The position numbers and the translations under genes are program-made. Shown here piece after piece: positions 40,690 through 63,443 of a stretch of DNA of 64,000 bases (position 1 is its first letter; each line of letters starts with the position of its first letter). The notes below the pieces were generated by a model. That model saw nothing but the letters and a program-made list of their open reading frames with translations. It was not told the DNA's origin and did no database searches. The stretch is taken from positions 1 to 64,000 of the forward strand of contig JABAKE010000007.1 of NCBI GenBank assembly GCA_019779905.1, written 5' to 3'. The DNA is from Modestobacter lapidis (lineage in GTDB: Bacteria > Actinomycetota > Actinomycetes > Mycobacteriales > Geodermatophilaceae).

Positions 40690-40755
40690 GAAGCAGTCTG
40701 GATAACAGAACTAGCCATGGGCGTCCGCCGCGGGCGTCTGGAGGGGGCGAACACC

Positions 40756-42854: not shown

Positions 42855-42927
42855 CGAGGCTTGCGAGGTCACACATGAGCACAGCGGCCCGACGAACGTG
42901 GCCGACGAGCGGGAGCGAGGAGGACCG

Positions 42928-44123: not shown

Positions 44124-44140
44124 GCGAGAGGAATGCCGCC

Positions 44141-44338
44141 ATGCCCGTCCTGAAGGCCGACTTCGCCGCGTGCCAAGGCTACGCCAACTGCGTGGACGCC
44201 GCGCCCACCGTGTACGACATCGACGACGACGGCGTCGTCGTGCTGCTCCGGGAGCGCATCTCCGAGGAGGAGCGGCCGCACATCGAGGAGGCCGCCCGCA
44301 GCTGCCCGGTCAGCGCCCTCACCATCGAGGACGAGTGA
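44141..44338 (+). CDS. phtAc: ferredoxin, 3Fe-4S type
   Basis: The 65-residue protein has three cluster cysteines (Cys11, Cys17 and Cys55, the last in SCPVSAL), with Tyr-Ala in place of the second cysteine of a 4Fe-4S motif. It should therefore hold a 3Fe-4S cluster, like the ferredoxins of actinobacterial P450s and phthalate dioxygenases. It passes electrons to the oxygenase and could also serve the upstream P450. ATG 44141 follows GAGAGGAA. Confidence 0.93.
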   Translation: MPVLKADFAACQGYANCVDAAPTVYDIDDDGVVVLLRERISEEERPHIEEAARSCPVSALTIEDE

Positions 44339-45603: not shown

Positions 45604-46331
45604 TGAACTCCGTGGACACCGGCCTCGCGGAGCTGCGCGAGGACCTGGCCGTGGCCTGCCGGGTTCTCGCGGCCCGCGGCCTGGCAGAGGGGTATCTCGG
45701 GCACATCAGCCTGCGGATCGACGAGAACCGCCTGCTGGTGCGCTGCCGCGGGCCGCAGGAACGCGGTCTGGCCTGGACGACGGCGGAGGACATCCGGCTG
45801 GTCACCCTGGACGGGGAGCCCGGTGCCGACGGGGAGCTGGAAGGGTGGATGGCGCCCAACGAGCTGCCGCTGCACACCGAGGTGCTGCGCCACCGTCCCG
45901 ATGTGTCGGCCGTCGTCCACGCACACCCGCCGGCCGTCGTGGCGGCCGACCTGGCCGGCCTCGGGATCCGACCGATCGTGGGTGCCTACGACATGCCGGG
46001 CACGAAGCTCGCGGCCGGTGGAATACCGGTCTACCCACGGGGTGTCCTGGTGCGGGACCGCGGGTTGGCTGCCGAGATGGTGGATGCCATGGGAGAGCGG
46101 CCCGTCGTCCTGCTGCGGGGGCACGGGCTCACCAGTTCGGGCACCAGCGTCGCGGAGGCGGTCCTGCGGGCGATCTCGGTCGACCAGTTGGCCCGCCTCT
46201 CGCTGACCATCGCCTCGGCAGGGGGGACGCTGCGCGACCTGCCGGCGGAGGACATGGCCCAGTTGCCCGACCTGGGTGGCGGGTTCAACCTCGCGACCGC
46301 GTGGCGGCATGAACGCGCCCGACTCCCGTGA
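45603..46331 (+). CDS. phtC: class II aldolase/adducin family decarboxylase (3,4-dihydroxyphthalate decarboxylase type)
   Basis: The 242-residue protein has the class II aldolase zinc motif (VVHAHPPAV) and a later GHG (LLRGHGLTSSGTSVAEAV), with LAEGYLGHISLRID at the front. In actinobacterial phthalate operons a protein of this family removes the 2-carboxylate of 3,4-dihydroxyphthalate to give protocatechuate. Its place after the ferredoxin reductase and before the regulator is the same here. The ATG overlaps the reductase stop (TGATG). Confidence 0.88.
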   Translation: MNSVDTGLAELREDLAVACRVLAARGLAEGYLGHISLRIDENRLLVRCRGPQERGLAWTTAEDIRLVTLDGEPGADGELEGWMAPNELPLHTEVLRHRPDVSAVVHAHPPAVVAADLAGLGIRPIVGAYDMPGTKLAAGGIPVYPRGVLVRDRGLAAEMVDAMGERPVVLLRGHGLTSSGTSVAEAVLRAISVDQLARLSLTIASAGGTLRDLPAEDMAQLPDLGGGFNLATAWRHERARLP

Positions 46332-49084: not shown

Positions 49085-50665
49085 TCAGGTGCGCCCGGTG
49101 ACCGTCCGTAGCACGTGGCCCGGGTCCGCCGGGGCCACGTCGCCGGTCCAGACCACGTACTGGTCGGGCCGCACGAGGACCAGGCGCGCCCCGTAGGCCG
49201 CCCGCTCTCCGGCGGCGGTGTCCCGGACGACGGTCAACGGGACACCGGCCACCTCGGCCGACTCCCGGAAGGCCTCCACGGCGGAGCTCTCCGCGTCGAA
49301 AGCGAGCAGGGTGAACCCTGTGCCGAGCTCCTCGAAGACGTTGCTGCCCCAGGACAGCGGCTGTGGCGGCAGATGGTGCCCGGCCTGGGCCGTGAAGGTG
49401 TGCTCACCGTGGGCGCTGATGACACCGCCTGGCGGGCCCAGCACGACCGGGGACCCCTCGTACCGGGGTTCGAAGTTCCGCAGCCGCTTGCCGAAGCCCT
49501 TCGCGGCCTCCTCGAACCGGCGCTCGAACTCCGCCCGGTCCACCGAGGGGCTGTACTGCTCGAGGAAGGCCCGGTCGTCCCGGATCCAGCCGCCGATGAT
49601 GTCCTCGCCGACGTCGCGGAAGATCGCCTGCCGCTCGACGCTGTAGGAGTCGAGCAGCGCGTCCCCGCCCCAGCCCGCCAGCACCGCGGCCAGCTTCCAG
49701 CTGAGGTTGACCGCGTCCTCGAGTCCGTTGTTGAGGCCGAAGCCCCCGTAGGGCGGGTGGGTGTGCGCGGCGTCCCCGGCGATGAACGCCCGGCCCGAGC
49801 GGTACACGTCGGCGACCTGCACGCGCAGGTCCCAGAAGCCCACGTGGTCGATCTCGCAGTCGAAGGCGAACCCGGCGGCCTGGTGGAGCAGGCCGGCGAA
49901 GTCGAAGTTCTCCACGGTGCTCCCGGCGGGCACCGGTGCGTGGAAGAAGAACTCCTCACCCACGTCGACACGGCCGAAGAACTTCCAGTAACCCTTGAGG
50001 TCCGGGTGCATGACGCGGTAGGTCGACCGGTCCGGGAACCGCTTGAGCGCCTCGTGCAGCTCGGGGGACCGGAACACGACCAGCGCGACCAGCTCGTCGA
50101 AGTCGGTGCCGCTGCGGGCGATGTCGGCCTGCTCCCGGACCAGTGAGTGGCCGCCGTCGCAGCCGACGACGAATTCGCCCTCCAGCTCCTCCTGGACGCC
50201 GTCCTTCTCCATGACCACCCGGACACCGTCCGGGTCCTGCTCGACGCTGATGGCCTTCCAGCCGACGTGCATGTCCACGTTCGGGAGGTCGGCCAGCCGC
50301 TGCCGCAGCACCGCCTCGGTGCGGTACTGCGGCAGCCGCTCGTTCGCCTGGAAGTAGAATGGGGCGACGAGCTCGCGGGCCGGGGGCGCGTGCCAGAAGT
50401 CGCTCAGCAGGTTCTCGTAGATCGTGACCTGGCCGATGGGGTGACCGGTCGGCATGGCCCGCGCCGCGCGCAGCTCGTCCACGAGGCCCCAGGACCAGAA
50501 GTGCTCGACCGTCCGCTGGGATAGGCCCTGGCCTTTCGGAATGCTCGACAGCTGGGGCCGCCGCTCGATCACCGCACACGACACCCCGCGGAGCCCCAGG
50601 TCGAGGGCGAGCCCCACGCCCACCGGACCTCCACCGACGATGACGACCTGGTGCCGTGGGGTCAT
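49085..50665 (-). CDS. FAD-dependent aromatic hydroxylase (MhpA/phenol hydroxylase-like)
   Basis: The 526-residue group A flavin monooxygenase has VVIVGGGPVGVGLALDLGLRG (FAD dinucleotide site), the VVGCDGGHSLVRE motif binding FAD and NAD(P)H, and RAFIAGDAAHTHPPYGGFGLNNGLEDAVNLSWKLA. A C-terminal thioredoxin-like extension follows, as in MhpA. It hydroxylates a phenolic acid ortho to an existing hydroxyl. ATG 50665 is preferred over ATG 50671 because GAGG is better spaced. A FadR-like operator lies 56 bases upstream, linking it to the second aromatic island. Confidence 0.92.
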   Translation of the reverse strand: MTPRHQVVIVGGGPVGVGLALDLGLRGVSCAVIERRPQLSSIPKGQGLSQRTVEHFWSWGLVDELRAARAMPTGHPIGQVTIYENLLSDFWHAPPARELVAPFYFQANERLPQYRTEAVLRQRLADLPNVDMHVGWKAISVEQDPDGVRVVMEKDGVQEELEGEFVVGCDGGHSLVREQADIARSGTDFDELVALVVFRSPELHEALKRFPDRSTYRVMHPDLKGYWKFFGRVDVGEEFFFHAPVPAGSTVENFDFAGLLHQAAGFAFDCEIDHVGFWDLRVQVADVYRSGRAFIAGDAAHTHPPYGGFGLNNGLEDAVNLSWKLAAVLAGWGGDALLDSYSVERQAIFRDVGEDIIGGWIRDDRAFLEQYSPSVDRAEFERRFEEAAKGFGKRLRNFEPRYEGSPVVLGPPGGVISAHGEHTFTAQAGHHLPPQPLSWGSNVFEELGTGFTLLAFDAESSAVEAFRESAEVAGVPLTVVRDTAAGERAAYGARLVLVRPDQYVVWTGDVAPADPGHVLRTVTGRT

Positions 50666-50720
50666 GACCATCCTCGTGAACTCGACCGGACGAAACGGCC
50701 GCGGGGGTAGCGGCAGCTAA

Positions 50721-50731
50721 TGGTATGACCA
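50721..50731. promoter_or_regulatory. GntR/FadR-like operator (flavin hydroxylase promoter)
   Basis: Read toward the hydroxylase gene it is TGGT-CAT-ACCA followed by TTAGC. It fits the FadR-type consensus TNGTNNNACNA perfectly. The adjacent CATTAG may be part of the promoter -10 region. Confidence 0.75.
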
Positions 50732-50858
50732 AGACTAGTGGAGTGACCTGGAGCGAGCGAGTGACCGGACGTCCGCGCCCCCGATGGCGCCCGGGCGTCG
50801 GCGCCTGGCCCGGCCGTCCGCCGGTGACCGGGCGGGCAGGGCAGGGCAGGACGGGATC

Positions 50859-51245
50859 GTGACCAGGGCGCTGCGCGAGGGCGACCCGGTCGTCGGGATC
50901 GTGTCCCCGGGGGAGATGGGCGGCGCGCTCGGTGCAGCCCTGGGTCGGGGTGGCGCGCGGGTGGTCGCCACCACGACCGGGCGCAGCGGACGGCACCGTG
51001 GAACTGACCGGGCGGGCTGGGCTCGACCTTGTGGACGACCTCGACGAGGTCGTCCGGCGATCGTCGGTGCTGCTGTCGGTGGTCCCACCTCAGCACGCCC
51101 GCGCCGTCGCCGAGGATCTGGTGGCCCGGGCGCGACGGCTCGGCGTCCGCCCGACCCTGGTCGACCTCAACGCGGTGACCCCGGCCGAGGTGTCGGGCAT
51201 CGCAGCGCTCGCCCGCGACGCGCAGATGGATGTCGTCGACGGGTG
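50859..51245 (+). pseudogene. broken NAD-binding 6-phosphogluconate dehydrogenase-like gene
   Basis: The GTG at 50859 opens a Rossmann start (PVVGIVSPGEMGGALGAALG, then ARVVATTTGRS). Near 50985-50995 homology shifts by one frame into ELTGRAGLDLVDDLDEVV, SVLLSVVPPQHARAVAEDL and LVDLNAVTPAEVSGIA. These pieces together form the first 125 or so residues of a 6PGDH-like/DUF1932 dehydrogenase. The C-terminal helical domain is missing: at about 51245 the sequence runs straight into a EutA-like fragment. One frameshift and a deletion mark it as dead. Confidence 0.8.
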
Positions 51246-52211
51246 CTGGACCGGGGCCGGGTCGTGGCTACCGCAGCGGTGCACGTGGGTGGCCGGCTCC
51301 AGGTCGTGGACGAGGCCGGGAGGATCGTCCGGCTCGACCCGGCCGGCAGTGGGCACGCCGCCCGGGCCGGCTACGCGTGGGAGCTGGGTGACACCGCCAC
51401 CGAGGAGGAGTTGACGCAGGTCGCGGAGACGATGGCCGACGCGCTCGTGGCCGCGGTCACCGGCGACCCGCCGCCCGCGGACGTGCTCTCCCTGTACCTG
51501 ACCGATCCGCTCGTCGAGGTCGGCCCCATTGACGGTGTCATGTTCTCCGGTGGTGTGGCCGAGTACGTCTACGACCGCGAGACCGAGCGGTTCGGCGACC
51601 TCGGCCGGCCGCTCGGCCGGGCGATCCGGGCCCGGGTCGACTCCGGTGCGCTGCCATACCCACTACTGCCGGCGGGCGAGTGCATCCGCGCGACCGCCCT
51701 GGGAGCGTCCGAGTACAGCGTCCAGCTGAGCGGCAACACCGGCTGCATCTCCGACCCGGACGCACTGCTGCCGCGGCGCAACCTGCAGGTGCTCCGGCCC
51801 AGCTACGAACTCGGGGACACCGTGGACCCGGTCACGGTGGCCACGGCCATCCGGCGCCACCTCGTCGCCCTGGACGCCGCCCACGCCGACGCCGACATCG
51901 CGCTCGCGATGTCGTGGACCGGGCTGCCCAGTCACGCCCGGCTGCTCGCCTTCGCCCAGGGGGTCCGCGACGGTCTGGCCGAACGGATCGCGCTGGGCAA
52001 GCCGGTCTACGTGATGCTGGACGGCGACGTCGCGATGACCCTGGGCCGGCTCCTGCGACAGGAGCTCGGCGTGCTCACCGGCCTGCTGGTCGTCGACGGG
52101 CTCGCCCTGCGCGACTTCGACTGGATCGACATCGGCCGGATGCGATACCCGTCGAACACCGTGCCCGTGACGATCAAGTCCCTCGTCTTCAGCCAGAGCC
52201 CCGGAGTCTGA
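51243..52211 (+). pseudogene. 5'-truncated EutA-like (ethanolamine ammonia-lyase reactivase) gene
   Basis: The open frame encodes 322 residues from a fortuitous GTG at 51243. It matches the C-terminal two-thirds of EutA: GRVVATAAVHVGGRL, GYAWELGDTATEEEL, DGVMFSGGVAEYVYDRE, EYSVQLSGNTG and ALAMSWTGLPSHARLLAF. The N-terminal ATPase lobe, about 150 residues or more, is absent. No ribosome-binding site precedes the GTG. A single deletion fusing it to the 6PGDH remnant explains both. The frame itself is intact, so the loss may be recent. Confidence 0.8.
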
Positions 52212-52260
52212 CCCGGCGCGGCGGTCGCCCACTCCCCGAGCCGGGCAGGGCGCCCCCGGA

Positions 52261-53034
52261 TCAGTCGTGCGCGACGGCCGTCGCCCCGACGCGGTCGGCG
52301 GTCCGGCGGAGGTGCGTGTTCATCAGCGCGGTCGCTGCCTCGACATCCCGCTGCGTGATGGCACCGACCAGGGCGCGGTGTTCCTCCACGCCGTGCCGGC
52401 CATGCGCCGGTGCTGCTTCGCGTGCGCGCTCGAGCGATCGGAGCAACGGGGCGTGCAGCGACTCGACGAACATGGTGACCGCACGGTTGTGCGCCGAGCC
52501 CGCGAACCGCGTGTGCCATTCGGCGGACAGTTCGAGCGGGTAGGCCTCGGACGTCAGTGCGGCATCGCTGCGGTCGCAGATGTCGTACAGCGCAGCGATA
52601 TCCTCCTCGGTCGCACGCTCGCACACCAGCGGGACGACCCCGAGTTCGAACACCATGCGCGCCTCGGTGACCTCCACGGCGGTGATCGACGCCAGCGAGA
52701 TCAGGTCGACGATGCCCTCGCCGACGAGACGGCTGCTCGGTGCCGTCACGAAGGCCCCGCCCCGCGCACCGACGCGGATCTCGACCAATCCGTTGGCCTC
52801 GAGGACGCGCAGTGCCTCGCGGACGGTCACCCGGCTCACGCCGAACCGCTCGCACAGCTCCCGCTCGGAGGGCAGCCGGTCCCCGGCGACGAGCCGGCCC
52901 TGCCGGATCAGCAGCCGCACCTGGTCGACGATCACCTCGGAGATGCGCCCGATGCTGACGCGGCTCAGCAGGTCGCCGGTGCCCGCAGTTGCGACTCCGT
53001 GTGCAGCAGCGGGAGGCGTTCCTGGCATGGTCAC
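52261..53034 (-). CDS. GntR-family (FCD) regulator of the second aromatic island
   Basis: The 257-residue protein has an N-terminal GntR winged helix (IVDQVRLLIRQGRLVAGDRLPSERELCERFGVSRVTVREALRVLEANGLV) followed by an all-helical FCD ligand domain (SAEWHTRFAGSAHN and EEHRALVGAITQRDVEAA). It likely represses until an aromatic acid binds. The GTG at 53034 lies six bases after a TAGGAT -10 hexamer, which implies a leaderless, self-regulated transcript. Similar operators occur before the hydroxylase, ferredoxin, Rieske and dehydrogenase genes. Confidence 0.92.
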   Translation of the reverse strand: MTMPGTPPAAAHGVATAGTGDLLSRVSIGRISEVIVDQVRLLIRQGRLVAGDRLPSERELCERFGVSRVTVREALRVLEANGLVEIRVGARGGAFVTAPSSRLVGEGIVDLISLASITAVEVTEARMVFELGVVPLVCERATEEDIAALYDICDRSDAALTSEAYPLELSAEWHTRFAGSAHNRAVTMFVESLHAPLLRSLERAREAAPAHGRHGVEEHRALVGAITQRDVEAATALMNTHLRRTADRVGATAVAHD

Positions 53035-53046
53035 CCGGTCATCCTA

Positions 53047-53057
53047 AGGTCAGACCA
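53047..53057. promoter_or_regulatory. GntR/FadR-like operator (own promoter)
   Basis: On the minus strand TGGT-CTG-ACCT is followed directly by TAGGAT, six bases from the GTG start. One base departs from TGGTNNNACCA. The overlap with the -10 element predicts tight autorepression. Confidence 0.7.
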
Positions 53058-53127
53058 CGGCGTACGGGCGCTATGTCCCGCATGGCGGAAGCTCGATCGG
53101 CAGAGCCGGATCCCGGTGGGGCATCAT

Positions 53128-53871
53128 CTAGCGCCCCTGGTCGGCGACCTCGGCCGCCGCGGTGGCCGCGGCCTCCGGTTCCAGGTACTCGCCGCCGCGT
53201 CTGCGCGGGTCGAGTCCGGGGCCCAGCTCGTAGCGCAGGGGCATGCCGGTGGGGATGTTCAGCTCCAGGACCTCGTCGGCGGACAACTCGTCCACGTGGG
53301 CCACCAGGGCCCGCAGCGAGTTGGAGTGCGCTGTGACGAGCACCGTGCGCCCGGCCCGAAGATCCGGGGCGATGGCGTCCAGCCAGTAGGGCAGCAGCCG
53401 GTTCTGGACGTCGCGGAGGCTCTCCGTCCGCGGGCGGAGTTCGTGGTCGACGATCCCGTAGCGGGGGTCCGTCGTCACGTCCCACTGGCTGCCGGGCTCG
53501 ATCGGGGGCGGCTTCAGGTCGTAGGACCGCCGCCACTGCTGGAACAACTCGTCGCCATAGCGCCTCCGGGCGGTTCTCCGGTCCATGCCCTGCAGTGCGC
53601 CGTAGTGCCGCTCGTTGAGCCGCCAGGTGCGGTGTGCCGGGATGTCCTCCCGGCCGGCTGCCGCCAGTGCCAGCATGCCGGTGCGCACCGCGCGGGTCAG
53701 CATCGAGGTGTGCAGCACGGCGGGCAGGACGCCGGCGGAGCGCAGGAGTGCGCCGCTGCGCCGCGCCTGCTCGACCCCTCGGGACGTGAGCTCGACGTCC
53801 ACCCAGCCGGTGAAGAGGTTGCGGGAATTCCACTCGCTCTCACCGTGGCGGAGGAGTACCAGCGTCGGCAC
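53128..53871 (-). CDS. 2,3-bisphosphoglycerate-dependent phosphoglycerate mutase family protein
   Basis: The 247-residue protein has the [29 protein letters not shown] phospho-histidine motif, [14 protein letters not shown], and [12 protein letters not shown] with the second catalytic histidine. That is the GpmA pattern, although [12 protein letters not shown] carries Ser where GpmA has Gly-Asn. A glycolytic paralogue embedded in an aromatic island is odd. It may be a second mutase for growth through pyruvate, or have another phosphatase substrate. GTG 53871 is the start. It diverges from the ferredoxin gene across a GntR-type site. Confidence 0.9.
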
Positions 53872-53901
53872 GCGCAGACCCTAGCGGCCGGGAAGGGCAT
53901 G

Positions 53902-53920
53902 TGGTCAAATGGACTAACCA
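53902..53920. promoter_or_regulatory. GntR/FadR-like operator (phosphoglycerate mutase/ferredoxin promoter)
   Basis: TGGTCAAATGGACTAACCA contains a TGGTC half-site and the imperfect palindrome TGGACTAACCA (53910-53920), one essential base away from TGGTNNNACCA on the opposite strand. It lies between the divergent mutase and ferredoxin genes. Confidence 0.6.
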
Positions 53921-53973
53921 AAAGCGCTCGCTGATGCCGCAGCGGGTCCGTCGCCGGAGAGGACTCGAGAACC

Positions 53974-54297
53974 GTGCCAAAGGTGATCTATGTGGGCGAC
54001 GCCGGCCAGGAGCACGCCGTCGACGCGGTGCCGGGCGAGTCGGTCATGGTGACGGCGGTGAAGAACGGTGTTCCCGGAATCATCGGCGAGTGCGGGGGAA
54101 ACGCGTCCTGCGCGACCTGCCACGTGTGGGTCCGGGACGAGTTCCTGCCCCTCGTCGGACACCCTGACGACATGGAGGAGGACCTCCTCGACATGGCGGT
54201 TTCCGAGCGGCGTGAGGGGAGCCGACTGTCCTGTCAGATCCGCGTCGCCGCAGAACTCGACGGACTGACGGTCGACGTCCCCCCGGAGCAGCCCTGA
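53974..54297 (+). CDS. 2Fe-2S ferredoxin (adrenodoxin type)
   Basis: The 107-residue protein has the cluster pattern Cys40, Cys46, Cys49 and Cys87 (CGGNASCATCHVW, then LSCQI), typical of adrenodoxin/putidaredoxin-like ferredoxins. It is placed 98 bases before the Rieske oxygenase gene and is likely its electron donor. No matching reductase is nearby. GTG 53974 follows GGAGAGGACTCGAG. Confidence 0.93.
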   Translation: MPKVIYVGDAGQEHAVDAVPGESVMVTAVKNGVPGIIGECGGNASCATCHVWVRDEFLPLVGHPDDMEEDLLDMAVSERREGSRLSCQIRVAAELDGLTVDVPPEQP

Positions 54298-54328
54298 CCG
54301 TCCCTCGCGGTTGACGCCAGACCTGCTA

Positions 54329-54339
54329 AGGAATGACCA
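54329..54339. promoter_or_regulatory. weak GntR/FadR-like operator (Rieske oxygenase promoter)
   Basis: AGGAATGACCA has an intact right half-site followed by TTAG, giving the same ACCATTAGC string found at the hydroxylase promoter. The left half is degenerate (two mismatches). Confidence 0.5.
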
Positions 54340-54395
54340 TTAGCCCTACCCGCTGATGCCGGTGCCGGCGGCGGGGCCGGACAGAGGAGACGCTC

Positions 54396-55682
54396 GTGCT
54401 TCGTCAGGAAATCAACGAACTGCTGACCCAGACCGGACCGAGGACGCCGATGGGCGAGCTGTTCCGGCAGTACTGGATGCCCGCCTGTCTGGCCGAGGAG
54501 CTCCCGGAGGACGGCTGCCCGCCGATCCGGCTCAAGCTGCTGTCCGAGCGTCTGGTGGCCTTCCGGGACAGCAAGGGCCAGTACGGGCTGATCGACGAAT
54601 TTTGCGCACACCGCGGCGTCTCGCTCTGGTTCGGCCGGAACGAGGAGGGCGGGCTGCGCTGCCCTTACCACGGCTGGAAGTACGACACGACGGGCCAGTG
54701 CCTCGACGTCCCGTCCGAGGCCGACAACAGCAGCTTCGCCGAGAACGTGAAGCTCACCTCCTACCCGCTGGTCAAGATCGGCGACGTCCTGTGGACGTAC
54801 ATGGGCGACCCGGCCACGCAGCCGCCGCTGCCGGAGTTCGAGTTCGCCCAGGTGGCCCCCGAGCAGACCTACACGTCCAAGCGCTGGCAGCAGTCCAACT
54901 GGATGCAGGCCTTCGAGGGCGGCATCGACTCCAGTCACGTGACGTTCCTGCACTCCGGCGGTCTCAAGACCGATCCGCTGTTCAAGGGTGCGAAGGGCAA
55001 CGAGTACAACCTCAACGACACCAAGCCGTTCTTCGAGGTCGCCGACAGCGAGGGGGGCCTGTTCGTCGGCGCACGACGCAACGCCGAGGACGGCAAGTAC
55101 TACTGGCGGATCACGCCGTGGGTCATGCCCTGCTTCACGATGGTCCCGCCGCGCGGTGACCACCCGATCCACGGCCACTTCTGGATTCCGATCGACGACG
55201 AGAACTGCTGGGCGTACAGCTTCGACTACCACCCGGTCCGGGCCCTGACGCCCGAGGAGCGGCAGGCCATGATCGACGGCCACGGCGTGCACAGCGAGAA
55301 CATCCCGGGCACCTACCGGCCGACGGCGAACATGGACAACGACTACCTGATGGACCGCGAGGCGCAGCAGCGCGGCGAGTACTACTCCGGCGTCAAGGGC
55401 ATCGCGATCCAGGACTCCTCCCTGCAGGAGAGCATGGGCCCGATCGTCGACCGCACCAAGGAGCGGCTCGTACCTGCGGACAGCGGCATCATCAAGGCCC
55501 GGCAGAAACTCCGGAAGGCCGCGCTCGCGCTGCGCGACCAGGGCGTCACGCCGCCCGGGGTGGATCCGGCGCACCACCGGGTGCGCTCCGCGGCGGTCGT
55601 GCTACCGCAGGCGGAGTCCTTCCTGGACGCGGCCCGTGACGACGTGCGGGTCCATCCCGGCATGCCGGTCGCGTCGGTCTGA
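54396..55682 (+). CDS. Rieske aromatic oxygenase, phthalate 4,5-dioxygenase type
   Basis: The 428-residue single-subunit oxygenase has a Rieske site at Cys70/His72 and Cys89/His92 (FCAHRG, CPYHGWKYDTTGQC). The iron site lies in EGGIDSSHVTFLH (His181, His186). The GIAIQDSSLQESMGPIVDRTKERL region marks the phthalate 4,5-dioxygenase/3-chlorobenzoate dioxygenase group. It acts on a benzoate-type acid by dihydroxylation or O-demethylation. With two dihydroxyphthalate-decarboxylase homologues downstream, a phthalate isomer is the best guess. GTG 54396 follows AGAGGAGA. No beta subunit is expected. Confidence 0.9.
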   Translation: MLRQEINELLTQTGPRTPMGELFRQYWMPACLAEELPEDGCPPIRLKLLSERLVAFRDSKGQYGLIDEFCAHRGVSLWFGRNEEGGLRCPYHGWKYDTTGQCLDVPSEADNSSFAENVKLTSYPLVKIGDVLWTYMGDPATQPPLPEFEFAQVAPEQTYTSKRWQQSNWMQAFEGGIDSSHVTFLHSGGLKTDPLFKGAKGNEYNLNDTKPFFEVADSEGGLFVGARRNAEDGKYYWRITPWVMPCFTMVPPRGDHPIHGHFWIPIDDENCWAYSFDYHPVRALTPEERQAMIDGHGVHSENIPGTYRPTANMDNDYLMDREAQQRGEYYSGVKGIAIQDSSLQESMGPIVDRTKERLVPADSGIIKARQKLRKAALALRDQGVTPPGVDPAHHRVRSAAVVLPQAESFLDAARDDVRVHPGMPVASV

Positions 55683-56185
55683 TGGCCGTCGAGACGAGCC
55701 TGCTGAGCAGCTGCGCCCGGGCCGCCACCGCGGCCGAGGCCCGCTTCCGGATCGACCGGCCCATCCGGCCCGCGCGCGCCGCCCGGATCATCGCCCTGGA
55801 CGAGCGGGCCGCCGGGATCGCCCGCCGAGCGGCGGCGGTCGAGTGGGCGAGCGCCCAGTTCCTGGTGTGCGAGGGCGTCGCCGGCGGCGGGGCGATCGGC
55901 GACTTCCTCCTGCGCGGCATCGAGGGGGAGCCGGTGGTGCTGGAGCAGACCCTCGCGGGCGCCGACGTCGTCGTCATGCTCGCGACCGACGACCGCGGCG
56001 CCGGCTGTGCGTACGCGCTGGGCAAGGCGTGCTGGGAGCGCGGCATCATGACCGCCGGCCTGGTGCTGAGCGACGAGTCCGGGGCCGACCAAGCGGTGGC
56101 CGCGCTCCGGCCGCACGCCCGGGTGCTGCTGCCCACCGCGGATGAGACCGACCTGACCGAGCTGCTGGCGGCACTGCGGGCCTGA
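55682..56185 (+). CDS. unrecognised 167-residue protein of the aromatic island
   Basis: It begins with a helical region rich in Ala and Arg (RIDRPIRPARAARIIALDERAAGI). It continues with alternating strand/helix segments (EPVVLEQTLAGADVVVMLAT, CAYALGKACWERGIMTAGLVLS) that look like a Rossmann-type nucleotide or cofactor-binding half-domain, but no glycine-rich loop is obvious. The ATG overlaps the Rieske oxygenase stop (TGATG), so the two are made together, which implies an intimate role. I cannot assign a family. Confidence 0.75.
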   Translation: MAVETSLLSSCARAATAAEARFRIDRPIRPARAARIIALDERAAGIARRAAAVEWASAQFLVCEGVAGGGAIGDFLLRGIEGEPVVLEQTLAGADVVVMLATDDRGAGCAYALGKACWERGIMTAGLVLSDESGADQAVAALRPHARVLLPTADETDLTELLAALRA

Positions 56186-56257
56186 CCGACCGGCCCCGGT
56201 CGCGGCGCGGCCGGCGCCCGAGCGGTTTCCACCCGGGAACGACGAGAGACGAGGGAC

Positions 56258-57091
56258 ATGGACGACAAGGTCAGCCTGCGCAGCCTCCAGCAGATGAAGG
56301 ACGACGGTCGCAAGATCGTCGGCGTCGTCGCCTGGGACTACCAGATCGCGCGGATCGTGGACCGCGTGGGCGTGGAGATCGTCTCCGTCGGCGACACGGT
56401 CGGGGTGAACCTCTGGGGCCACAGCAACCCCTTCGAGGTCACGATGGAGGAAATGCTGGTCGTCACCCGGGCGGTCCGGCGCGGCGTGACCCGCGCCCTG
56501 GTCAGTGCCGACTTTCCGTTCGGGCCCCTGCAGGAGGGCGCCGACAGCGCCGTCCGGGCGGCCATCCGGTTCGTGAAGGAGGCCGGCGTCGACCTGGTGA
56601 AGCTCGACGCCGCCGCCGACTACCTCGATGCGGTCGAGGCCGTCACCCGGGCCGGCATCCCGGTCTTCGCCCAGTTCGGGATCACGCCGCAGACGGCGCT
56701 GCGCTACGGCGTGGAGTACAGATCGATCCCCTCGGCCGCCGACGCGGTGCCCGAGGAGCTCCAGGACGAGCTCGTCGCCGAGGCCCGCCGGCTGGAGGAG
56801 GCCGGGGCGGCCCTGCTGAACTTCACCAACTCCGGCCCGGTGGTGGGCGCTGCCGTGGCCCAGGCGGTCTCCGTCCCGGTCGTCGGCGGGTTCGGCGGCG
56901 GCCCGTGGCTCGACGGCCGGATGCGGATGGCGCACGCCGCGATCGGCTACGCCGCCTCGGCGATCGACGACCCGCCGGACACCTACGCCAACGTCGCGCA
57001 GACCACGCTCGACGTGCTGACGCGCTACGCCGAGGACGTCCGCGGGGCCCGGCAGCTCCCCGGCGGCATTCCGGTACCCCCCGCCACCTGA
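56258..57091 (+). CDS. PanB-like (ketopantoate hydroxymethyltransferase family) protein
   Basis: The 277-residue TIM-barrel protein resembles PanB: IVGVVAWDYQIARIVDRVGVEIVSVGDTVGVNLWGH, the VSADFPFG loop, and DLVKLDAAADYLDAV with PVFAQFGITPQTAL. PanB moves a one-carbon unit onto a 2-oxo acid; the metal-binding Asp residues are recognisable. Found within an aromatic operon, and with no other pantothenate gene, it more likely does an aldol or retro-aldol step on a 2-oxo acid from ring degradation. It starts at ATG 56258 after GAGGG. Confidence 0.85.
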   Translation: MDDKVSLRSLQQMKDDGRKIVGVVAWDYQIARIVDRVGVEIVSVGDTVGVNLWGHSNPFEVTMEEMLVVTRAVRRGVTRALVSADFPFGPLQEGADSAVRAAIRFVKEAGVDLVKLDAAADYLDAVEAVTRAGIPVFAQFGITPQTALRYGVEYRSIPSAADAVPEELQDELVAEARRLEEAGAALLNFTNSGPVVGAAVAQAVSVPVVGGFGGGPWLDGRMRMAHAAIGYAASAIDDPPDTYANVAQTTLDVLTRYAEDVRGARQLPGGIPVPPAT

Positions 57092-57129
57092 CCGCCCGAC
57101 CCGACCCGCACGCCGAGAGGACCCCCACC

Positions 57130-57978
57130 GTGCCCACCGCCGTCGTCGACGGGATTCCCACGCGCTACGAGGTCACCGGGGCCGGCCCGCCGTTGCTGAT
57201 GTTCTCCCCCGGCGGGTTCGACTCGACGCTGGAGAGCTGGCGGACGGTCGGGATCTACCGCCGCCTCGGGCTGCTCGAGCACCTGAGCGCGAGCTACACC
57301 TGCATCACGTTCGACCGGCGGGAGTCGGGCCGGTCGGGCGGGCGGGTCGAGCGCGTCTCCTGGGCGGACTACGTCGCCCAGGGGCGCGGACTGCTCGACC
57401 ACCTCGGCATCGAGCGGGCGCACCTGATGGGCGGCTGCGTCGGCTGCTCGACGGTCGCCGCGTTCGGCGTGGCCCACCCGGACCGGGTGCTCAGCATGGT
57501 GCTGTTCTCCCCGGCGGGCGGGGTGAAGTACCGGCTCAAACAGCATTCCCGGTTCGTCCAGCACCTGACGTTCGCCGAGGCCCACGGGCTCCAGGCGGTC
57601 GTCGACCTGGTGCAGGGGACGGACAAGGGCTTCACCGCCGATCCCCGGATCGGCCCCTGGAACAGCGTCATCCGCACCGACCCCGACTTCGCGCAGGCCT
57701 ACGCGCAACTGGACGCCGGCCGCTACGGCGTCCTGGTCAGCGGCATGGCGCGGGTGATGTTCGACCGGGACACCGTGCCCGGCGCCGAGCCGGAGGACCT
57801 GCTGCGGCTCGACGTGCCGGCGCTGATCGTCCCGGGGCAGGACGAGTCACACGCCCCCTCGGCTGCCCGCTACCTCCAGGAGTGCCTCCCCGCGGCGCAG
57901 TACTGGGACGTGCCGGTGGCGGAGCAGACGGCGGAGACCGCCCCGGCGCGCATCCTGCAGTTCCTCGCCGGCCGGTAG
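57130..57978 (+). CDS. alpha/beta-hydrolase fold protein with cysteine at the nucleophile elbow
   Basis: The 282-residue protein has the fold's strand-loop pattern (PPLLMFSPGGFDSTLESW, CITFDRRESGRSGG). The elbow GGCVG (101-105) has Cys103 where Ser is usual. The acid may be the Asp in VPGQDESHAP, but the normal C-terminal GH is replaced by VAEQTAET, so a standard catalytic histidine is missing. It may be a C-C hydrolase or lactonase using unusual residues, or a non-hydrolytic member. It is the last gene of the unit, ending at a bidirectional terminator. Confidence 0.85.
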   Translation: MPTAVVDGIPTRYEVTGAGPPLLMFSPGGFDSTLESWRTVGIYRRLGLLEHLSASYTCITFDRRESGRSGGRVERVSWADYVAQGRGLLDHLGIERAHLMGGCVGCSTVAAFGVAHPDRVLSMVLFSPAGGVKYRLKQHSRFVQHLTFAEAHGLQAVVDLVQGTDKGFTADPRIGPWNSVIRTDPDFAQAYAQLDAGRYGVLVSGMARVMFDRDTVPGAEPEDLLRLDVPALIVPGQDESHAPSAARYLQECLPAAQYWDVPVAEQTAETAPARILQFLAGR

Positions 57979-57980
57979 CG

Positions 57981-58019
57981 GCCGCCCCCGGTCGGCGGTA
58001 GCGGCCGACCGGGGGCGGC
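57981..58019. terminator. bidirectional terminator hairpin
   Basis: GCCGCCCCCGGTCGG pairs perfectly with CCGACCGGGGGCGGC (15 bases, nine-base loop), filling the gap between convergent genes. Confidence 0.85.
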
Positions 58020-58475
58020 TCAGGTCAGCGTCTCGCCGCGCTCCAGGGCGGCAATCTGATCCAGCCGTCGCTGGTGCACACCACCCTTGAACGGCGTCTC
58101 CAGCCAGGTGGCGAGGATCTCCTCGGCCAGCGCCGGGGAGACGACCTTGGTGCCCAGGATCAGCACGTTGGCGTCGTTGTTCCCCCGCGAGATCCGGGCG
58201 TGGAAGAGGTCGGGGCACACGCCCGCCCGGATACCGCGGATCTTGTTGCAGGCGATGGACTCGCCCTGACCGCTCCCACCGATGACCATCCCGCGGTCCA
58301 CCGACCCGTCGACGACGCGGCGGCAGACGTCGACGCACAGCGGCGGGTAGTCCGCCACCTGCTCGGCGGTGTGCGCCCCGCGGTCGTCGACCGCGTGGCC
58401 GCGGGCCTCGAGCCACTCGACGAGCCGGGTCTTGAGCGCCACGCCGTTGTGGTCGGCCGCGATCGCGATGCGCAC
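58020..58475 (-). CDS. RpiB/LacA-B family sugar-phosphate isomerase-like protein
   Basis: The 151-residue protein has the RpiB pattern: MRIAIAADHNGVALKTRLVEWL, DYPPLCVDVCRRVVDGSVDRGMVIGGSGQGESIACNKIRGIRA and NNDANVLILGTKVVSPALAEEIL. The active-site Cys of RpiB near position 70 is replaced (GGSGQGES where GTGIGM-type is usual). It lies 17 bases downstream of a decarboxylase-like gene, with which it forms an operon. A pentose phosphate role in this setting is unexpected; a keto-enol isomerase on a ring-opened acid is possible. Confidence 0.85.
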   Translation of the reverse strand: MRIAIAADHNGVALKTRLVEWLEARGHAVDDRGAHTAEQVADYPPLCVDVCRRVVDGSVDRGMVIGGSGQGESIACNKIRGIRAGVCPDLFHARISRGNNDANVLILGTKVVSPALAEEILATWLETPFKGGVHQRRLDQIAALERGETLT

Positions 58476-58492
58476 GCTGCCTCCTCGGGTTC

Positions 58493-59440
58493 TCAGGCGG
58501 TCAGGTCAGTGGTGCCGGGCGCGAAGACGTCCTCCAACGCAACCGGGCGATCCAGGATCCGCTGGTCCACCGCAGAGCGCAGCAACTGCTCCAGGACCGC
58601 CCGGTTCGGCTCGATCCCGTAGGGCAGCGGGTCGGCCCCGGTCACCTCCAGGACCTGCTGGTACATCCGGTCGGTCGCCGTCGGGGCGTCGATCGCCCCC
58701 GACCGCAGCCGATCGACGTACTGCCGCTTGGCCCGGGCGAAGGCGTCGAAGACGGCCGGGCCGACCTCGGGCCGCTCGCGGAGGAGCTCGTCCCGAACCA
58801 CGACCAGGTGGTTGATCGGGTACCGGCCGCGGGTCTGCAGCGCCCGGACGGCGGCCTCCGTCGGGTCCGGGATCAGCGGGACCACGTCCGGGGCATCGAT
58901 GTCGGCGCCGATGACGGCCGCCAGTTCACCGCTGCGCAGCAGCTCCTCCAGCGCGCGGCCGGGCTCGACCGGGACCACGTTGGCCGGCGCCCGGTACTGC
59001 GCGACGTGCTCGTCGCCGGACGGCGCCCAGGTGATCCGGCTGAGGTCCACGCCGTACTCGTCCTGCAGGATCGCCCGGGCCCACACTCCGGTGGTGACGG
59101 TGTAGCCGCGGTTGACCCCGACCGTGCGGCCCTCCAGGTCCTGGGGCGCGCGGACGTCGGAGCCGGCCGCGACCTGGATGGCACCGTGGTGGAAGCCGCG
59201 GACCAGGAAGGCGGGCACGGCGGTGAACGCCACACCGTGCGCCTTCGCGACCAGGTATGTCGTGAGCGCCATCTCGCAGACGTCGAACTCGAGGGTGCGC
59301 ACCATGCGCCGGAAGCCCTGGACGAGGACGGGCACCTCTTCGAACTCGAAGCGGAAGCCCTCGGGCGTCACCGCGCCGCTCTTCAGCGCCTCGTTGTTGC
59401 CCTGGGTGCGGGTGACGGTCTTCAGCAGGTGCTCGGCCAC
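58493..59440 (-). CDS. 4,5-dihydroxyphthalate decarboxylase-like protein (paralogue 1)
   Basis: The 315-residue protein has the periplasmic-binding-protein fold found in Pht5-type decarboxylases: VPVLVQGFRRMVRTLEFDVCEMALTTYLVAK near the start and FLVRGFHHGAIQV. DLEGRTVGVNRGYTVTTGVWARAIL and GRYPINHLVVVRDELL follow. There is no signal peptide, so it is cytoplasmic and more likely an enzyme than a transport protein. GTG 59440 follows GAGGAG; the longer upstream frame crosses the divergent promoter. It is transcribed away from a GntR-type operator at 59518. Confidence 0.85.
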   Translation of the reverse strand: MAEHLLKTVTRTQGNNEALKSGAVTPEGFRFEFEEVPVLVQGFRRMVRTLEFDVCEMALTTYLVAKAHGVAFTAVPAFLVRGFHHGAIQVAAGSDVRAPQDLEGRTVGVNRGYTVTTGVWARAILQDEYGVDLSRITWAPSGDEHVAQYRAPANVVPVEPGRALEELLRSGELAAVIGADIDAPDVVPLIPDPTEAAVRALQTRGRYPINHLVVVRDELLRERPEVGPAVFDAFARAKRQYVDRLRSGAIDAPTATDRMYQQVLEVTGADPLPYGIEPNRAVLEQLLRSAVDQRILDRPVALEDVFAPGTTDLTA

Positions 59441-59517
59441 GGGTACTCCTCGCTGGCGCTCGTCGCGCGGTCCAGCGGGCCGTCGTCGACCGGCTGGTGG
59501 ACGGCCGGAACGTAGCA

Positions 59518-59528
59518 TGGTCAGACCA
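59518..59528. promoter_or_regulatory. GntR/FadR-like operator (divergent decarboxylase/dehydrogenase promoter)
   Basis: TGGTC-A-GACCA is a perfect palindrome, followed by ATAG. It lies between the decarboxylase paralogue (minus) and the zinc dehydrogenase (plus), 55 bases from the latter's ATG, and could control both. Confidence 0.8.
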
Positions 59529-59582
59529 ATAGACCTCACGCTACGGTGGCCTCGACGACATCCCAGAACCGAAGGACAGACC

Positions 59583-60695
59583 ATGGCAGAGCAGGTGCTG
59601 GCGGCCGTGCGGACCGGCCCGGGCGTGACCGAGCTGCGCGAGTTCCCGATGCCCGACGTCCCCGACGACGCCGCGCTGCTGAAGGTCGAGGTCGCCGGGA
59701 TCTGCGGCACCGACGTCAAGATGTACGCGAAGCCGCCGTTCGCCGCGCCGGTGATCATGGGCCACGAGAACGTCGGCATCATCGCCAAGGCGGGCCGGAA
59801 GTTCACCGAGAGCAAGGGCCTGGCCGAGGGCGACCGGGTGTTCGTCGAGCACTACGTCGGCTGCATGCACTGCGAGTGGTGCCGGGCAGGGGAGTACCGC
59901 CACTGCGAGCTCACCGACTGGCGGACCAACCCCGACGCGCGCCGCTACGGGTACACGTCGGCGGAGAACCCCGGCCACCTGTGGGGCGGGTTCTCCCAGT
60001 ACATGTACCTGCCGTGGAACGCGGTGACCCACAAGGTGCCCGATGGCGTCTCCGCGGAGCTGGCCGGCCTGGTCACCCCGCTGTCCAACGGCATCGAGTG
60101 GGCGCTGAACGCCGGCGGTGTCGGCTACGCCTCCACGGTGCTCATCCAGGGCCCGGGCCAGCAGGGCCTGTCGCAGGTCGTCGCCGCCAAGCAGGCCGGT
60201 GCGTCGCTGATCATCGTCACCGGCACCACGCGGGACGCCACCCGGCTCGAGCTCGCCACGGCCCTGGGCGCCGACCACGTCATCGACGTGCTGCGGGAGG
60301 ACGCGCTCGCGCGGGTCCTGGAGATCACCGGCGGCAAGGGGGTCGACGTCGTCCTGGACTGCACGTCCGGTGCCGGCACCGCCCCGGTGCTGCTCGGCAT
60401 CGACGCGCTCAAGCGCCGCGAGGGCGTCATGGTGACTCAGGGCGAGCTGGCCGCCTTCCCCAACTTCCCGCTCAAGAAGATGACCGAGAAGTGCATCGCC
60501 CTCAGGAGCGCCCGCGGGCACGGCTATCGTGCCGTCGAGCTCGCGCTGGAGCAGCTCGCCTCGGGGCGCTTCCCGCTGGAGCGGCTGGCCACGCACACCT
60601 TCGGCCTGGAGGACGTCGACCACGCCATCCGGGCGCTGGCCGGTGAGACTGGCGAGGACGCGCTGCACGTGTCCTTGCTGCCGTGGGGGAAGTGA
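59583..60695 (+). CDS. zinc-binding medium-chain dehydrogenase
   Basis: The 370-residue protein has GICGTDVKMY and IMGHENVGII (catalytic zinc Cys and His-Glu). The structural-zinc region is CMHCEWCRAGEYRHC, and the nucleotide site is VLIQGPGQQGLSQVVAAKQAG. It oxidises an alcohol or hydroxy-acid with NAD(P). In this island it may serve as the dihydrodiol or semialdehyde dehydrogenase, since no Gfo/Idh-type or ALDH gene is near. ATG 59583 follows GAAGGACAGACC. It heads the run of LigK-, LigJ- and decarboxylase-like genes. Confidence 0.9.
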   Translation: MAEQVLAAVRTGPGVTELREFPMPDVPDDAALLKVEVAGICGTDVKMYAKPPFAAPVIMGHENVGIIAKAGRKFTESKGLAEGDRVFVEHYVGCMHCEWCRAGEYRHCELTDWRTNPDARRYGYTSAENPGHLWGGFSQYMYLPWNAVTHKVPDGVSAELAGLVTPLSNGIEWALNAGGVGYASTVLIQGPGQQGLSQVVAAKQAGASLIIVTGTTRDATRLELATALGADHVIDVLREDALARVLEITGGKGVDVVLDCTSGAGTAPVLLGIDALKRREGVMVTQGELAAFPNFPLKKMTEKCIALRSARGHGYRAVELALEQLASGRFPLERLATHTFGLEDVDHAIRALAGETGEDALHVSLLPWGK

Positions 60696-60743
60696 GAGCG
60701 GCAGCGCCGGGAAGAGAATGCCGACCATGAGCGAGGAGAACGC

Positions 60744-61433
60744 ATGAGCGTCGTCGTCCGGAATCCCCGCCGCACCGAGCGGGCCGTCGTCGACGGCCTC
60801 GCCGCGTGCGGCGTCTCCACCGTCCACGAGGCCCAAGGGCGCACCAACCTGCTCGACCCGGCGCTGCGGCCGATCTACGCCGGCGCCCGGGTCGCGGGCA
60901 CCGCGGTCACCGTCAGCGTGCCGCCCGGCGACAACTGGATGATCCACGTCGCCGTCGAGCAGTGCCAGGAGGGTGACGTGCTGGTCGTCGCCCCCACGTC
61001 GCCGTCCGAGGCCGGCTACTTCGGTGACCTGCTGGCCACCTCGCTCGCTGCCCGCGGGGTCCGCGGGCTGGTCATCGACGCCGGCTGCCGGGATGTCGCC
61101 GACCTGACCCGGATGGGCTTCCCGGTCTGGTCGCGCCACGTGTCGGCGTACGGCACCGTGAAGGAGACGCTGGGCAGCGTCAACGTGCCGCTGGTGTGCG
61201 CCGGCCAGCTGGTGCAGCCCGGTGACGCCGTGGTCGCCGATGACGACGGCGTCGTCGTCGTGCCGCGGGCCACGGCCTCCCAGGTGCTCGAGGCCGCCCG
61301 CGCCCGGGAGACGAAAGAGGCGGCGGCGCGGGAGCGCTACGCCGCCGGGGAGCTCGGCCTCGACGTCAACGCGATGCGGGATCGGCTCACGAGCAAGGGC
61401 CTGACCTACGTGGACGCGGAGGACGACCAGTGA
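60744..61433 (+). CDS. ligK: 4-carboxy-4-hydroxy-2-oxoadipate aldolase/oxaloacetate decarboxylase (RraA fold)
   Basis: The 229-residue protein has [34 protein letters not shown], then [45 protein letters not shown]. It also has [15 protein letters not shown] and [16 protein letters not shown]. The GDLLA and DAGCRD loops carry the metal and pyruvate-binding residues of LigK/HMG-CHA aldolases. It cleaves CHA to pyruvate and oxaloacetate, the last step of protocatechuate 4,5-cleavage and gallate degradation. GAGGAGAACGC precedes the ATG. Confidence 0.92.
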
Positions 61434-62449
61434 TCATCGACTGTCACGGGCACTACACGACCGAGCCGGCGGCCCTGAAGGACTTCCGGCAGGCACAGCT
61501 CGCCTCCCTCGACGATCCGGCGCTGCCCGCGCCCGAGCTGGCGCCGATCAGCGACGACGAACTCCGGGCGAGCGTGGAGGGCAACCAGCTGCGCGTGCTG
61601 CGCGAGCGCGGCGGCGACCTGATGATCTTCTCGCCGCGGGCATCGGGGATGGGCCACCACGTACCCGACCCGGCCGTCGCGCGGGCCTGGGCGTCCACGA
61701 GCAACGACCTGGTGGCCCGCGTCGTCGGGCTATTCCCGGACAACTTCGCCGGTGTCTGCCAGCTGCCCCAGACCCCCGGCGGCCCGCTGGACGACGCCGT
61801 CGCCGAGCTGCGGCGGTGCGTGGAGACCCTGGGCTTCGTGGGGTGCAACCTCAACCCGGACCCCTCCGGGGGGTTCTGGACGTCCAAGCCGCTCACCGAC
61901 GAGTACTGGTTCCCGCTCTACGAGGCGATGGTCTCCCTCGACGTCCCCGCCATGGTGCACGTCTCCAGCTCCTGCAACCCCAACTTCCACGCCCTCGGCG
62001 CGCACTACCTGAACGCCGACACCGCGGCGTTCATGCAGTTCATCGAGGGCGACCTGTTCACCCGCTTCCCGTCGCTCCGCTTCGTCATCCCGCACGGCGG
62101 CGGCGCGGTGCCCTACCACTGGGGCCGCTACCGCGGGCTGGCCGAGCGGATGGGTCGGCCGCAGCCGTCGACCCTGCTGGACAACGTCTTCTTCGATACC
62201 TGCGTGTACCACCAGCCCGGCATCGACCTGCTGACGCGGGTGATCCCGACGGAGAACATCCTGTTCGCCTCCGAGATGCTGGGCGCGGTCCGGGGTGGAG
62301 ACCCCGAGACGGGCGTCGACTGGGACCACACCAAGCACTACGTCGACCAGGTCCCGTTGACCGACGATCAGCGCCGCCAGGTATTCGAGACCAACGCCCG
62401 TCGGGTCTACCCGCGGCTGGACGCGCAGCTCACCGCTGCGGGGAGGTAG
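61430..62449 (+). CDS. ligJ: 4-oxalomesaconate hydratase (amidohydrolase fold)
   Basis: The 339-residue protein has the amidohydrolase metal motif IIDCHGHYT. It then shows [66 protein letters not shown] and [19 protein letters not shown]. These are LigJ landmarks. LigJ hydrates 4-oxalomesaconate to CHA, the substrate of the aldolase encoded just upstream. The GTG overlaps the aldolase stop (GTGA), so the consecutive enzymes are co-translated. Confidence 0.93.
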
Positions 62450-62453
62450 AGAC

Positions 62454-63443
62454 ATGTCCCGACTGCAGCTGACCTTCGCCTGTGGCGACTACGACCGCAC
62501 CCGCGCGCTGGAGGAGGGCACGGTCCGTCCCGACGGCATCGACCTGACCTACCTGCGACTGCCGGTCGAGGAGACCTTTTTCCGGATGTCCCGGCACCGG
62601 GAGTTCGAGGTCGCCGAGATGTCCCTGTCGTCGTACGTGAAGTCCCTCGACCTCGACGAGCCGCCGTTCGTGGCGCTGCCGGTCTACACCTCGCGGCAGT
62701 TCCGGCACGCCGGCATCTTCGTCAACGTGAACTCGGGCATCGACGAACCCGCGGACATGCGGGGCAAGATCGTCGGTACCCCGGAGTGGCAGCTCACCGC
62801 CAACGTCTGGATCCGCGGCTTCCTCGCCGACCAGTACGGGGTGCCGGTCGACTCCGTCGAGTACCGGACCGGGGGGCAGGAGATGCCGGGCCGGATCGAG
62901 AAGGCCGCCGTCGACCTCGGCGAGCGCATCCGCATCCGGCCCATCCCGGGTGACAAGACCCTCTCGGCGATGCTGGCCGCGGGTGAGATCGACGTGTTCC
63001 AGGGCCCGCGGGTGCCATCGTCCTTCGTCCCCGGGGGGAACGTCCGGCGGCTCTTCCCCGACCCGGTCGCCGCGGAGCAGGAGTACTTCGCGCGGACCGG
63101 GATCTTCCCGATCATGCACGTCGTCGTCGTCCGCCGGGACGTCTACGAGCGGCACCCGTGGGTGGCCCAGACGCTGACCAAGGCGTTGGGATTGGCCAAG
63201 CAGAAGGCCATGGCCGAGCTGTACGACGCCTCCGCGCTGCGGTTCATGCTGCCGTGGCTCATCCCCGGCCTGGAGGAGGCGCGTGCGCTGCTCGGCGAGG
63301 ACTACTGGTCCTACGGGCTGCAGGGCAACGAGAAGGCGCTGGGGACGTTCCTCCGCTACCACCACGAGCAGGGGCTGTCCCGGCGGCAGTACGAGCCATC
63401 GGAGCTGTTCGCCCCCGAGTCGCTGGAGTCCTTCGTCATCTAG
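62454..63443 (+). CDS. 4,5-dihydroxyphthalate decarboxylase (paralogue 2)
   Basis: The 329-residue protein has LTFACGDYDRTRALEEGTVRPDGIDLTYLRLPVEETFFRM and FEVAEMSLSSYV. YTSRQFRHAGIFVN, WIRGFLADQYGVP and IFPIMHVVVVRRDVYERHPWVAQTL are also present. These match Pht5-type 4,5-dihydroxyphthalate decarboxylase, which yields protocatechuate. It follows ligJ by four bases with GGGAGG upstream. It is closer to the family than the 58.5-kb paralogue. It is the last gene before a strong terminator. Confidence 0.9.
   Translation: MSRLQLTFACGDYDRTRALEEGTVRPDGIDLTYLRLPVEETFFRMSRHREFEVAEMSLSSYVKSLDLDEPPFVALPVYTSRQFRHAGIFVNVNSGIDEPADMRGKIVGTPEWQLTANVWIRGFLADQYGVPVDSVEYRTGGQEMPGRIEKAAVDLGERIRIRPIPGDKTLSAMLAAGEIDVFQGPRVPSSFVPGGNVRRLFPDPVAAEQEYFARTGIFPIMHVVVVRRDVYERHPWVAQTLTKALGLAKQKAMAELYDASALRFMLPWLIPGLEEARALLGEDYWSYGLQGNEKALGTFLRYHHEQGLSRRQYEPSELFAPESLESFVI

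Follow-up and report, generated by a model that had tools for sequence, protein, structure and literature searches.

Gene content of the island

We analysed a 64,000-nucleotide stretch of the Modestobacter lapidis genome (assembly GCA_019779905.1, contig JABAKE010000007.1; hereafter the window). It makes up the opening 64 kb of a contig of 222 kb, within a draft genome of 4.78 Mb. Between positions 49,085 and 63,443 the window carries an island of genes for aromatic-acid breakdown, centred on a Rieske oxygenase. This island is neither a chance grouping nor simply an incomplete protocatechuate 4,5-pathway, and it belongs to a conserved catabolic island that is apparently undescribed. The named genes are long reading frames with a third-position GC of 0.95-0.96 (measured at 60-63.4 kb). 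CupA and EutA, which appear in the list below, are a bicupin and its usual neighbour in related islands.

49085..50671, minus strand: FAD monooxygenase (FMO; FAD_binding_3 / MhpA-like), adjoining CupA/EutA in Blastococcus
50877..51230, plus strand: Rossmann-fold dehydrogenase remnant, split over two frames, reading into EutA; weak Pfam matches for each piece
51231..52211, plus strand: EutA-like gene reduced to its 3' part, which starts near residue 204 of 528; the 5' part and CupA are missing
52261..53034, minus strand: GntR-family regulator
53128..53871, minus strand: phosphoglycerate-mutase (histidine phosphatase) homologue (PGM)
53974..54297, plus strand: 2Fe-2S ferredoxin, 107 residues, 79% identical to the Blastococcus ferredoxin adjoining the Rieske oxygenase
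54396..55682, plus strand: Rieske oxygenase (RHO), isophthalate-dioxygenase-like, with R253 in the pocket
55682..56185, plus strand: P167, a single-domain protein with a predicted FtsZ GTPase-domain fold
56258..57091, plus strand: PanB-like protein
57130..57978, plus strand: alpha/beta-hydrolase-fold protein (ABH) with a conserved CVGC
58020..58475, minus strand: RpiB-family isomerase
58493..59440, minus strand: dihydroxyphthalate-decarboxylase-like protein (DHPD1), start inferred from the homologue alignment
59583..60695, plus strand: Zn-type medium-chain dehydrogenase (ADH)
60744..61433, plus strand: LigK, 4-carboxy-4-hydroxy-2-oxoadipate aldolase
61430..62449, plus strand: LigJ, 4-oxalomesaconate hydratase
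62454..63443, plus strand: DHPD2, a 4,5-dihydroxyphthalate decarboxylase homologue

Much of this inventory had been recognised in an earlier, sequence-only reading, and its calls of two dihydroxyphthalate-decarboxylase homologues, of LigJ and LigK, and of PanB-like, RpiB-like, mutase-like (here PGM), Cys-elbow alpha/beta (here ABH) and unfamiliar 167-residue proteins all held up. It had also reported that LigAB, LigC and LigI are absent, and none of them is among the window genes as read. Overlooked at that stage were the ferredoxin gene (53974-54297), the remnant of a deletion near 50.9-52.2 kb and a phthalate 3,4-dioxygenase-type operon at 40.7-46.3 kb. LigK passes the NCBIfam equivalog TIGR02798 (353.2 against a cut-off of 304.5 bits), and LigJ scores 480 bits against the solved LigJ structures 6dxq/6dwv, compared with 182 bits for the next family (LigY-type hydrolase); by these matches both are genuine. 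DHPD2 matches the solved 4,5-dihydroxyphthalate decarboxylase 9jp7 at E 1.2e-84, and DHPD1 shares about 30% identity with orthologues of DHPD2.

The PanB-like and RpiB genes are each a second copy in this genome. The isomerase passes the cut-offs of three NCBIfam models for RpiB and fails that of the actinobacterial model. The PanB-like protein matches Pantoate_transf at 206 bits, fails the NCBIfam panB cut-off (153.5 against 207.55 bits) and is identical to the genome's own PanB at 82 of 266 positions (31%). It keeps D46, D85 and K115, and carries T190 and Q139, in 80/80 of the loci described below, at the positions of E181 and H136 of E. coli PanB, which we take to be the catalytic Glu and His. 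Because of these replacements it is unlikely to be a pantoate enzyme; it looks like an altered paralogue that may act on another 2-oxo acid. In ABH, C103 and C106 are each present in 73 of 74 loci and D238/H241 in all 74, and inspection by eye places Q266 where the catalytic His would be expected.

Conservation of the gene set and loss of a bicupin

Named genomes were scanned with an alignment of the PanB-like protein, which returned 187 related stretches, and the best 80 were kept as loci. Genes were counted by tblastn at a query coverage of at least 80%. The PanB-like gene is present in 80/80 loci by design, followed by ABH (74), RHO (62), ADH (52), LigJ (50), LigK (47, some down to 32% identity), GntR (33), RpiB (32), PGM (27) and FMO (4). 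These counts are lower bounds, since several of the loci are short contigs; a few loci hold little besides the PanB-like gene. For LigK and ABH the tblastn counts are cited in place of neighbourhood clusters c15 and c21, which are probably antisense calls over these two genes, and counts for DHPD1 and DHPD2 were left out because the two cross-match each other, down to 25% identity. The loci span Streptomyces, Planotetraspora, Actinomadura, Blastococcus, Mycobacterium, Burkholderiales, Alphaproteobacteria and others. In Streptomyces (L049) the full order runs ABC transporter, EutA, CupA, PGM, ferredoxin, RHO, P167, PanB-like, ABH, RpiB, DHPD1, ADH, LigK, LigJ, DHPD2 and ferredoxin reductase. 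Since most of the gene set recurs across the 80 fetched loci, the grouping goes beyond chance. In a search of open PMC papers by title, which did not include the FtsZ-like protein, no title named such a cluster.

Upstream, window positions 32437-36502 encode a P450, an aldehyde dehydrogenase and an SDR with 68-69%, 58-60% and 43-44% identity, respectively, to neighbours of the island in five Mycobacterium-type loci. Given this resemblance, the island could reach up to about 32 kb.

The interval between FMO and GntR holds CupA and EutA in Blastococcus. In the window it holds EutA from about residue 204 of 528 (the last 61%, beginning at 51231). The junction is marked by two pieces just before this that are out of frame and match Rossmann dehydrogenases weakly. 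This dehydrogenase remnant had no match in the fetched loci, and CupA had no match anywhere in this whole genome. Among 50 isolate genomes with the module, CupA was found in 43 at E 1e-60 or better (42 at 78-100% identity and one at 41%), compared with 11 for LigB (E 1e-30 or better) and 15 for LigI (E 1e-20 or better, 10 of these at 68-73% identity). CupA is thus the usual companion of the module, and LigAB and LigI are not. Clustering of called genes within the fetched flanks places EutA in 38/80 loci and CupA in 37/80. With CupA lost here, a deletion in this strain may account for the absence of a ring-cleavage gene.

The CupA profile matches the gentisate dioxygenase 3bu7 at E 1e-5. In the alignment of its C-terminal cupin to 3bu7 both proteins have HxH and HxHxN, and the putative metal-binding residues H243, H245, H288 and H290 are invariant in 21 sequences and align to 3bu7. 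CupA differs from gentisate 1,2-dioxygenase, itself a cupin enzyme, in its very low overall similarity and in a first cupin that by eye lacks HxH. That CupA opens the ring is our leading inference, not a result.

EutA-like and bicupin genes also recur as adjacent pairs (L136 11285-13932; L131 10244-13090; L146 15682-18453 and 38956-41284). Blastococcus sp. CT_GayMR19 and another relative, G023, carry CupA and EutA on the same contig at a distance of about 60 kb. Such pairs, some of them tens of kilobases from the oxygenase, suggest a two-protein module.

With CupA and the 5' part of EutA missing, the route in this strain would be either broken or completed by another dioxygenase, for example a LigA/LigB pair. 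The first option implies a decaying island that no longer supports growth and whose remaining genes are relics. The dehydrogenase remnant, the truncated EutA and the lack of any CupA match in the genome all fit such decay. The other island genes, however, are open, ferredoxin included, and are 71-94% identical to those called in the Blastococcus sp. CT_GayMR19 copy (67% for P167), and we regard decay as possible but rather unlikely.

The second option touches the proposal, made in the sequence-only reading, that ring cleavage is encoded elsewhere. We found seven LigB-family places in the genome, one of which is a LigA+LigB pair on another contig, C275. Another LigB-family gene, followed by a small gene, lies about 5 kb from this pair (L009 14734-16087). 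The LigI query gave no match in this genome, and the LigC query gave only remote Gfo/Idh/MocA relatives (best E 3.9e-12, 28% over part of the sequence). The proposal therefore stands for the LigA/LigB pair, whereas a complete Lig pathway elsewhere in this genome was looked for and rejected.

DHPD proteins normally yield protocatechuate (Pht5). Together with the LigA/LigB pair, this favours an explanation in which the island feeds protocatechuate into normal 4,5-cleavage, with LigABC-I encoded elsewhere and the odd genes as passengers. It is opposed by the LigI and LigC results, by the low counts of LigB and LigI among the module genomes, and by the conservation of the odd genes with RHO across phyla. 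Moreover, PcaH is over its cut-off on the window's own contig and can take protocatechuate. We consider this explanation improbable. LigJ and LigK orthologues are common to the island and to the protocatechuate 4,5-cleavage pathway (LigABCIJK); the differences are that LigAB lies outside the cluster, that the genome has no LigI match and only remote LigC relatives, and that the wider island family has the bicupin. A separate phthalate 3,4-dioxygenase-type operon upstream of the island (window 40753-46331, plus strand) encodes oxygenase alpha and beta subunits, a dihydrodiol dehydrogenase, a ferredoxin, a ferredoxin reductase and a decarboxylase that passes the PhtC NCBIfam cut-off (390.6 against 200 bits). 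This operon should lead to protocatechuate, and as the genome has PcaH for that product, LigJ and LigK need not serve phthalate.

The oxygenase pocket and a neighbour with a predicted FtsZ fold

RHO consists of Rieske and LigXa_C domains, and the sequence-only reading described it as a phthalate-4,5-dioxygenase-type oxygenase. Its closest solved relative is 9INA, the isophthalate dioxygenase (IPDO) of Comamonas (201 of 419 residues identical, 48%), and isophthalate-type is therefore the more exact label. According to PMC12445078, R234 and H257 of IPDO bind both isophthalate carboxylates, the enzyme attacks C3/C4, and the residue at the site of R253 is linked to the ortho/para positions. Both carboxylate anchors are kept in RHO, as R238 and H261, in 62/62 loci. 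The hydrophobic pocket residues F249, L198 and F333 are not kept; RHO has R253, N202 and I336, again in 62/62 loci. Phe occupies the 249 position in IPDO, in a 92.6%-identical IPDO relative from an iph-like operon and in the RHOs of Rhodococcus, Arthrobacter and Peribacillus, and Arg occupies it in a Phyllobacterium RHO that belongs to a LigJ-bearing cluster. On these residues, the natural reading is that the substrate would be a meta-dicarboxylate with a further polar group.

The Comamonas isophthalate pathway (iphACBDR; IPDO structures 9INA/9IOY) thus resembles the island in its oxygenase and both anchors, and differs in the three pocket residues. It further differs in the dehydrogenase, which is of the Zn type here and is annotated as an SDR beside the 92.6%-identical IPDO relative, and in the many extra genes of the island, which include LigJ and LigK within the cluster. 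A ferredoxin gene and a ferredoxin reductase gene each occur in 37/80 loci by clustering of called genes.

P167 (167 residues) matched no Pfam or NCBIfam model at E 0.001, and structure prediction gave it the fold of the FtsZ GTPase domain. At the sequence level, in the comparison with FtsZ, the PDB profile gave E 0.48, and hhalign gave E 0.0044 with a probability of 8%, the alignment comparison drawing on 7 plus-strand loci. Unlike the FtsZ GTPase domain, P167 lacks the GGGTGTG phosphate loop, where it has a gap and DRGAG; it also lacks the C-terminal domain and sits in a catabolic operon. It is located between RHO and the PanB-like gene in 60 of 64 RHO-bearing loci. Of 249 genomes sampled across the order, 9 have P167, this genome counted; one of the matches is weak.

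Hypothetical proteins of about 170 residues whose sequences resemble the FtsZ GTPase domain are also encoded in Rieske oxygenase operons on Rhodococcus and Arthrobacter plasmids (L147 12501-13007, L148 12510-13037, L171 7509-8021, L172 7516-8031 and L173 10188-10700). These operons contain an RHO, a Zn-dehydrogenase, the hypothetical protein and a PDR/VanB reductase. They share with the island the RHO (54-56% identity), the Zn-dehydrogenase and the FtsZ-like small protein, and in the two RHOs tested also N202 and I336. They differ in having Phe at the R253 site (the same two) and in that no PanB, LigJ or LigK is annotated in the stretches viewed; a terephthalate-type operon adjoins two of the five operons viewed. 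We tentatively suggest, as an idea that may well prove wrong, that P167 represents an FtsZ/tubulin-fold protein without GTP loop or polymer domain, recruited as a standing partner of isophthalate-type RHOs inside a widespread, undescribed bicupin-opening pathway to 4-oxalomesaconate that bypasses LigAB, LigC and LigI.

A proposed pathway and its alternatives

The explanation we favour, with moderate confidence, takes the island for one member of a conserved family of gene clusters that would break down an isophthalate-like (meta-dicarboxylate) ring bearing a further polar or anionic group; CupA would open this ring. RHO, with the ferredoxin and reductase, would dioxygenate the ring at a carboxylated carbon, and P167, nearly always adjoining RHO, may assist in some way. 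The Zn-dehydrogenase would re-aromatise the dihydrodiol, and one or two of the DHPD proteins would take off carboxyl groups. CupA, through its gentisate-dioxygenase-like metal site, would then open the ring together with EutA. The PanB-like protein, the CVGC-bearing ABH and the RpiB-like isomerase would rearrange the ring-opened acid into 4-oxalomesaconate or a close analogue, which LigJ would hydrate and LigK would split into pyruvate and oxaloacetate. Neither LigC nor LigI would be needed because the proposed pathway skips pyrone dicarboxylate. A new route to 4-oxalomesaconate through the odd proteins had also been raised in the sequence-only reading. That idea agrees in part with the finding that many genomes in which neither LigB nor LigI was matched keep those genes together with RHO, LigJ and LigK; the best ring-opening candidate, however, turned out to be the bicupin beside EutA (43/50, lost here), which is none of the proteins it had named.

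Several observations weigh against this favoured pathway. Its basis, which is shown, consists of the gene set, its conservation, the pocket residues, the CupA loss and the predicted P167 fold; the substrate, products and chemistry are proposals built on these. The substrate idea draws on a sequence comparison of 10 pocket positions, and as N202 and I336 are common to the Rhodococcus and Arthrobacter RHOs, R253 alone marks this group. CupA is lacking in 7 of the 50 module genomes (E 1e-60), four of which form one Mycobacterium group that keeps RHO, PanB-like, ABH, DHPD1, ADH, LigK and LigJ together. Cupin phosphoglucose (glucose-6-phosphate) isomerases match CupA about equally well, so that its matches do not establish ring cleavage, and its structure model is poor (mean pLDDT 55.6). 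Finally, the Phyllobacterium version has no PanB-like match in 41 kb, which means that the PanB-like gene is not universal.

A different substrate would change the early steps. With 5-hydroxyisophthalate, 3,4-dioxygenation and loss of CO2 would give gallate, whose cleavage leads directly to 4-oxalomesaconate, without LigC or LigI, and on to LigJ and LigK. A LigB-type enzyme with 75% identity to the LigB of this genome is encoded on a Rhodococcus opacus plasmid (L121 1417-11874). Its cluster also contains LigK, a PIG-L protein and folate C1 genes, and looks like a syringate/gallate (or methylgallate-like) pathway. The action of IPDO at C3/C4 also suits this substrate; R253, however, replaces a residue tied to the ortho/para positions and not to position 5 (both from PMC12445078). 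Both DHPDs, EutA, the PanB-like protein and ABH would be left unexplained, and among the titles and abstract openings of the literature searched no paper on 5-hydroxyisophthalate breakdown was found. We give this alternative little weight. A benzenetricarboxylate such as trimellitate, dioxygenated to 4,5-dihydroxyphthalate and decarboxylated by DHPD2, would suit the extra Arg in the pocket and the clear homology of DHPD2, but is just as improbable, as its product would be protocatechuate and LigJ/LigK without LigC/LigI would then make no sense. Dipicolinate was considered as a natural meta-dicarboxylate and set aside: the literature search gave nothing usable, and the known dip cluster has an unrelated oxygenase.

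That many soil bacteria keep this gene set points towards a naturally occurring aromatic acid; a route for its breakdown is absent from the literature searched. The island offers candidates for a new ring-opening enzyme family, for a re-purposed PanB and for an FtsZ-fold protein tied to Rieske oxygenases.

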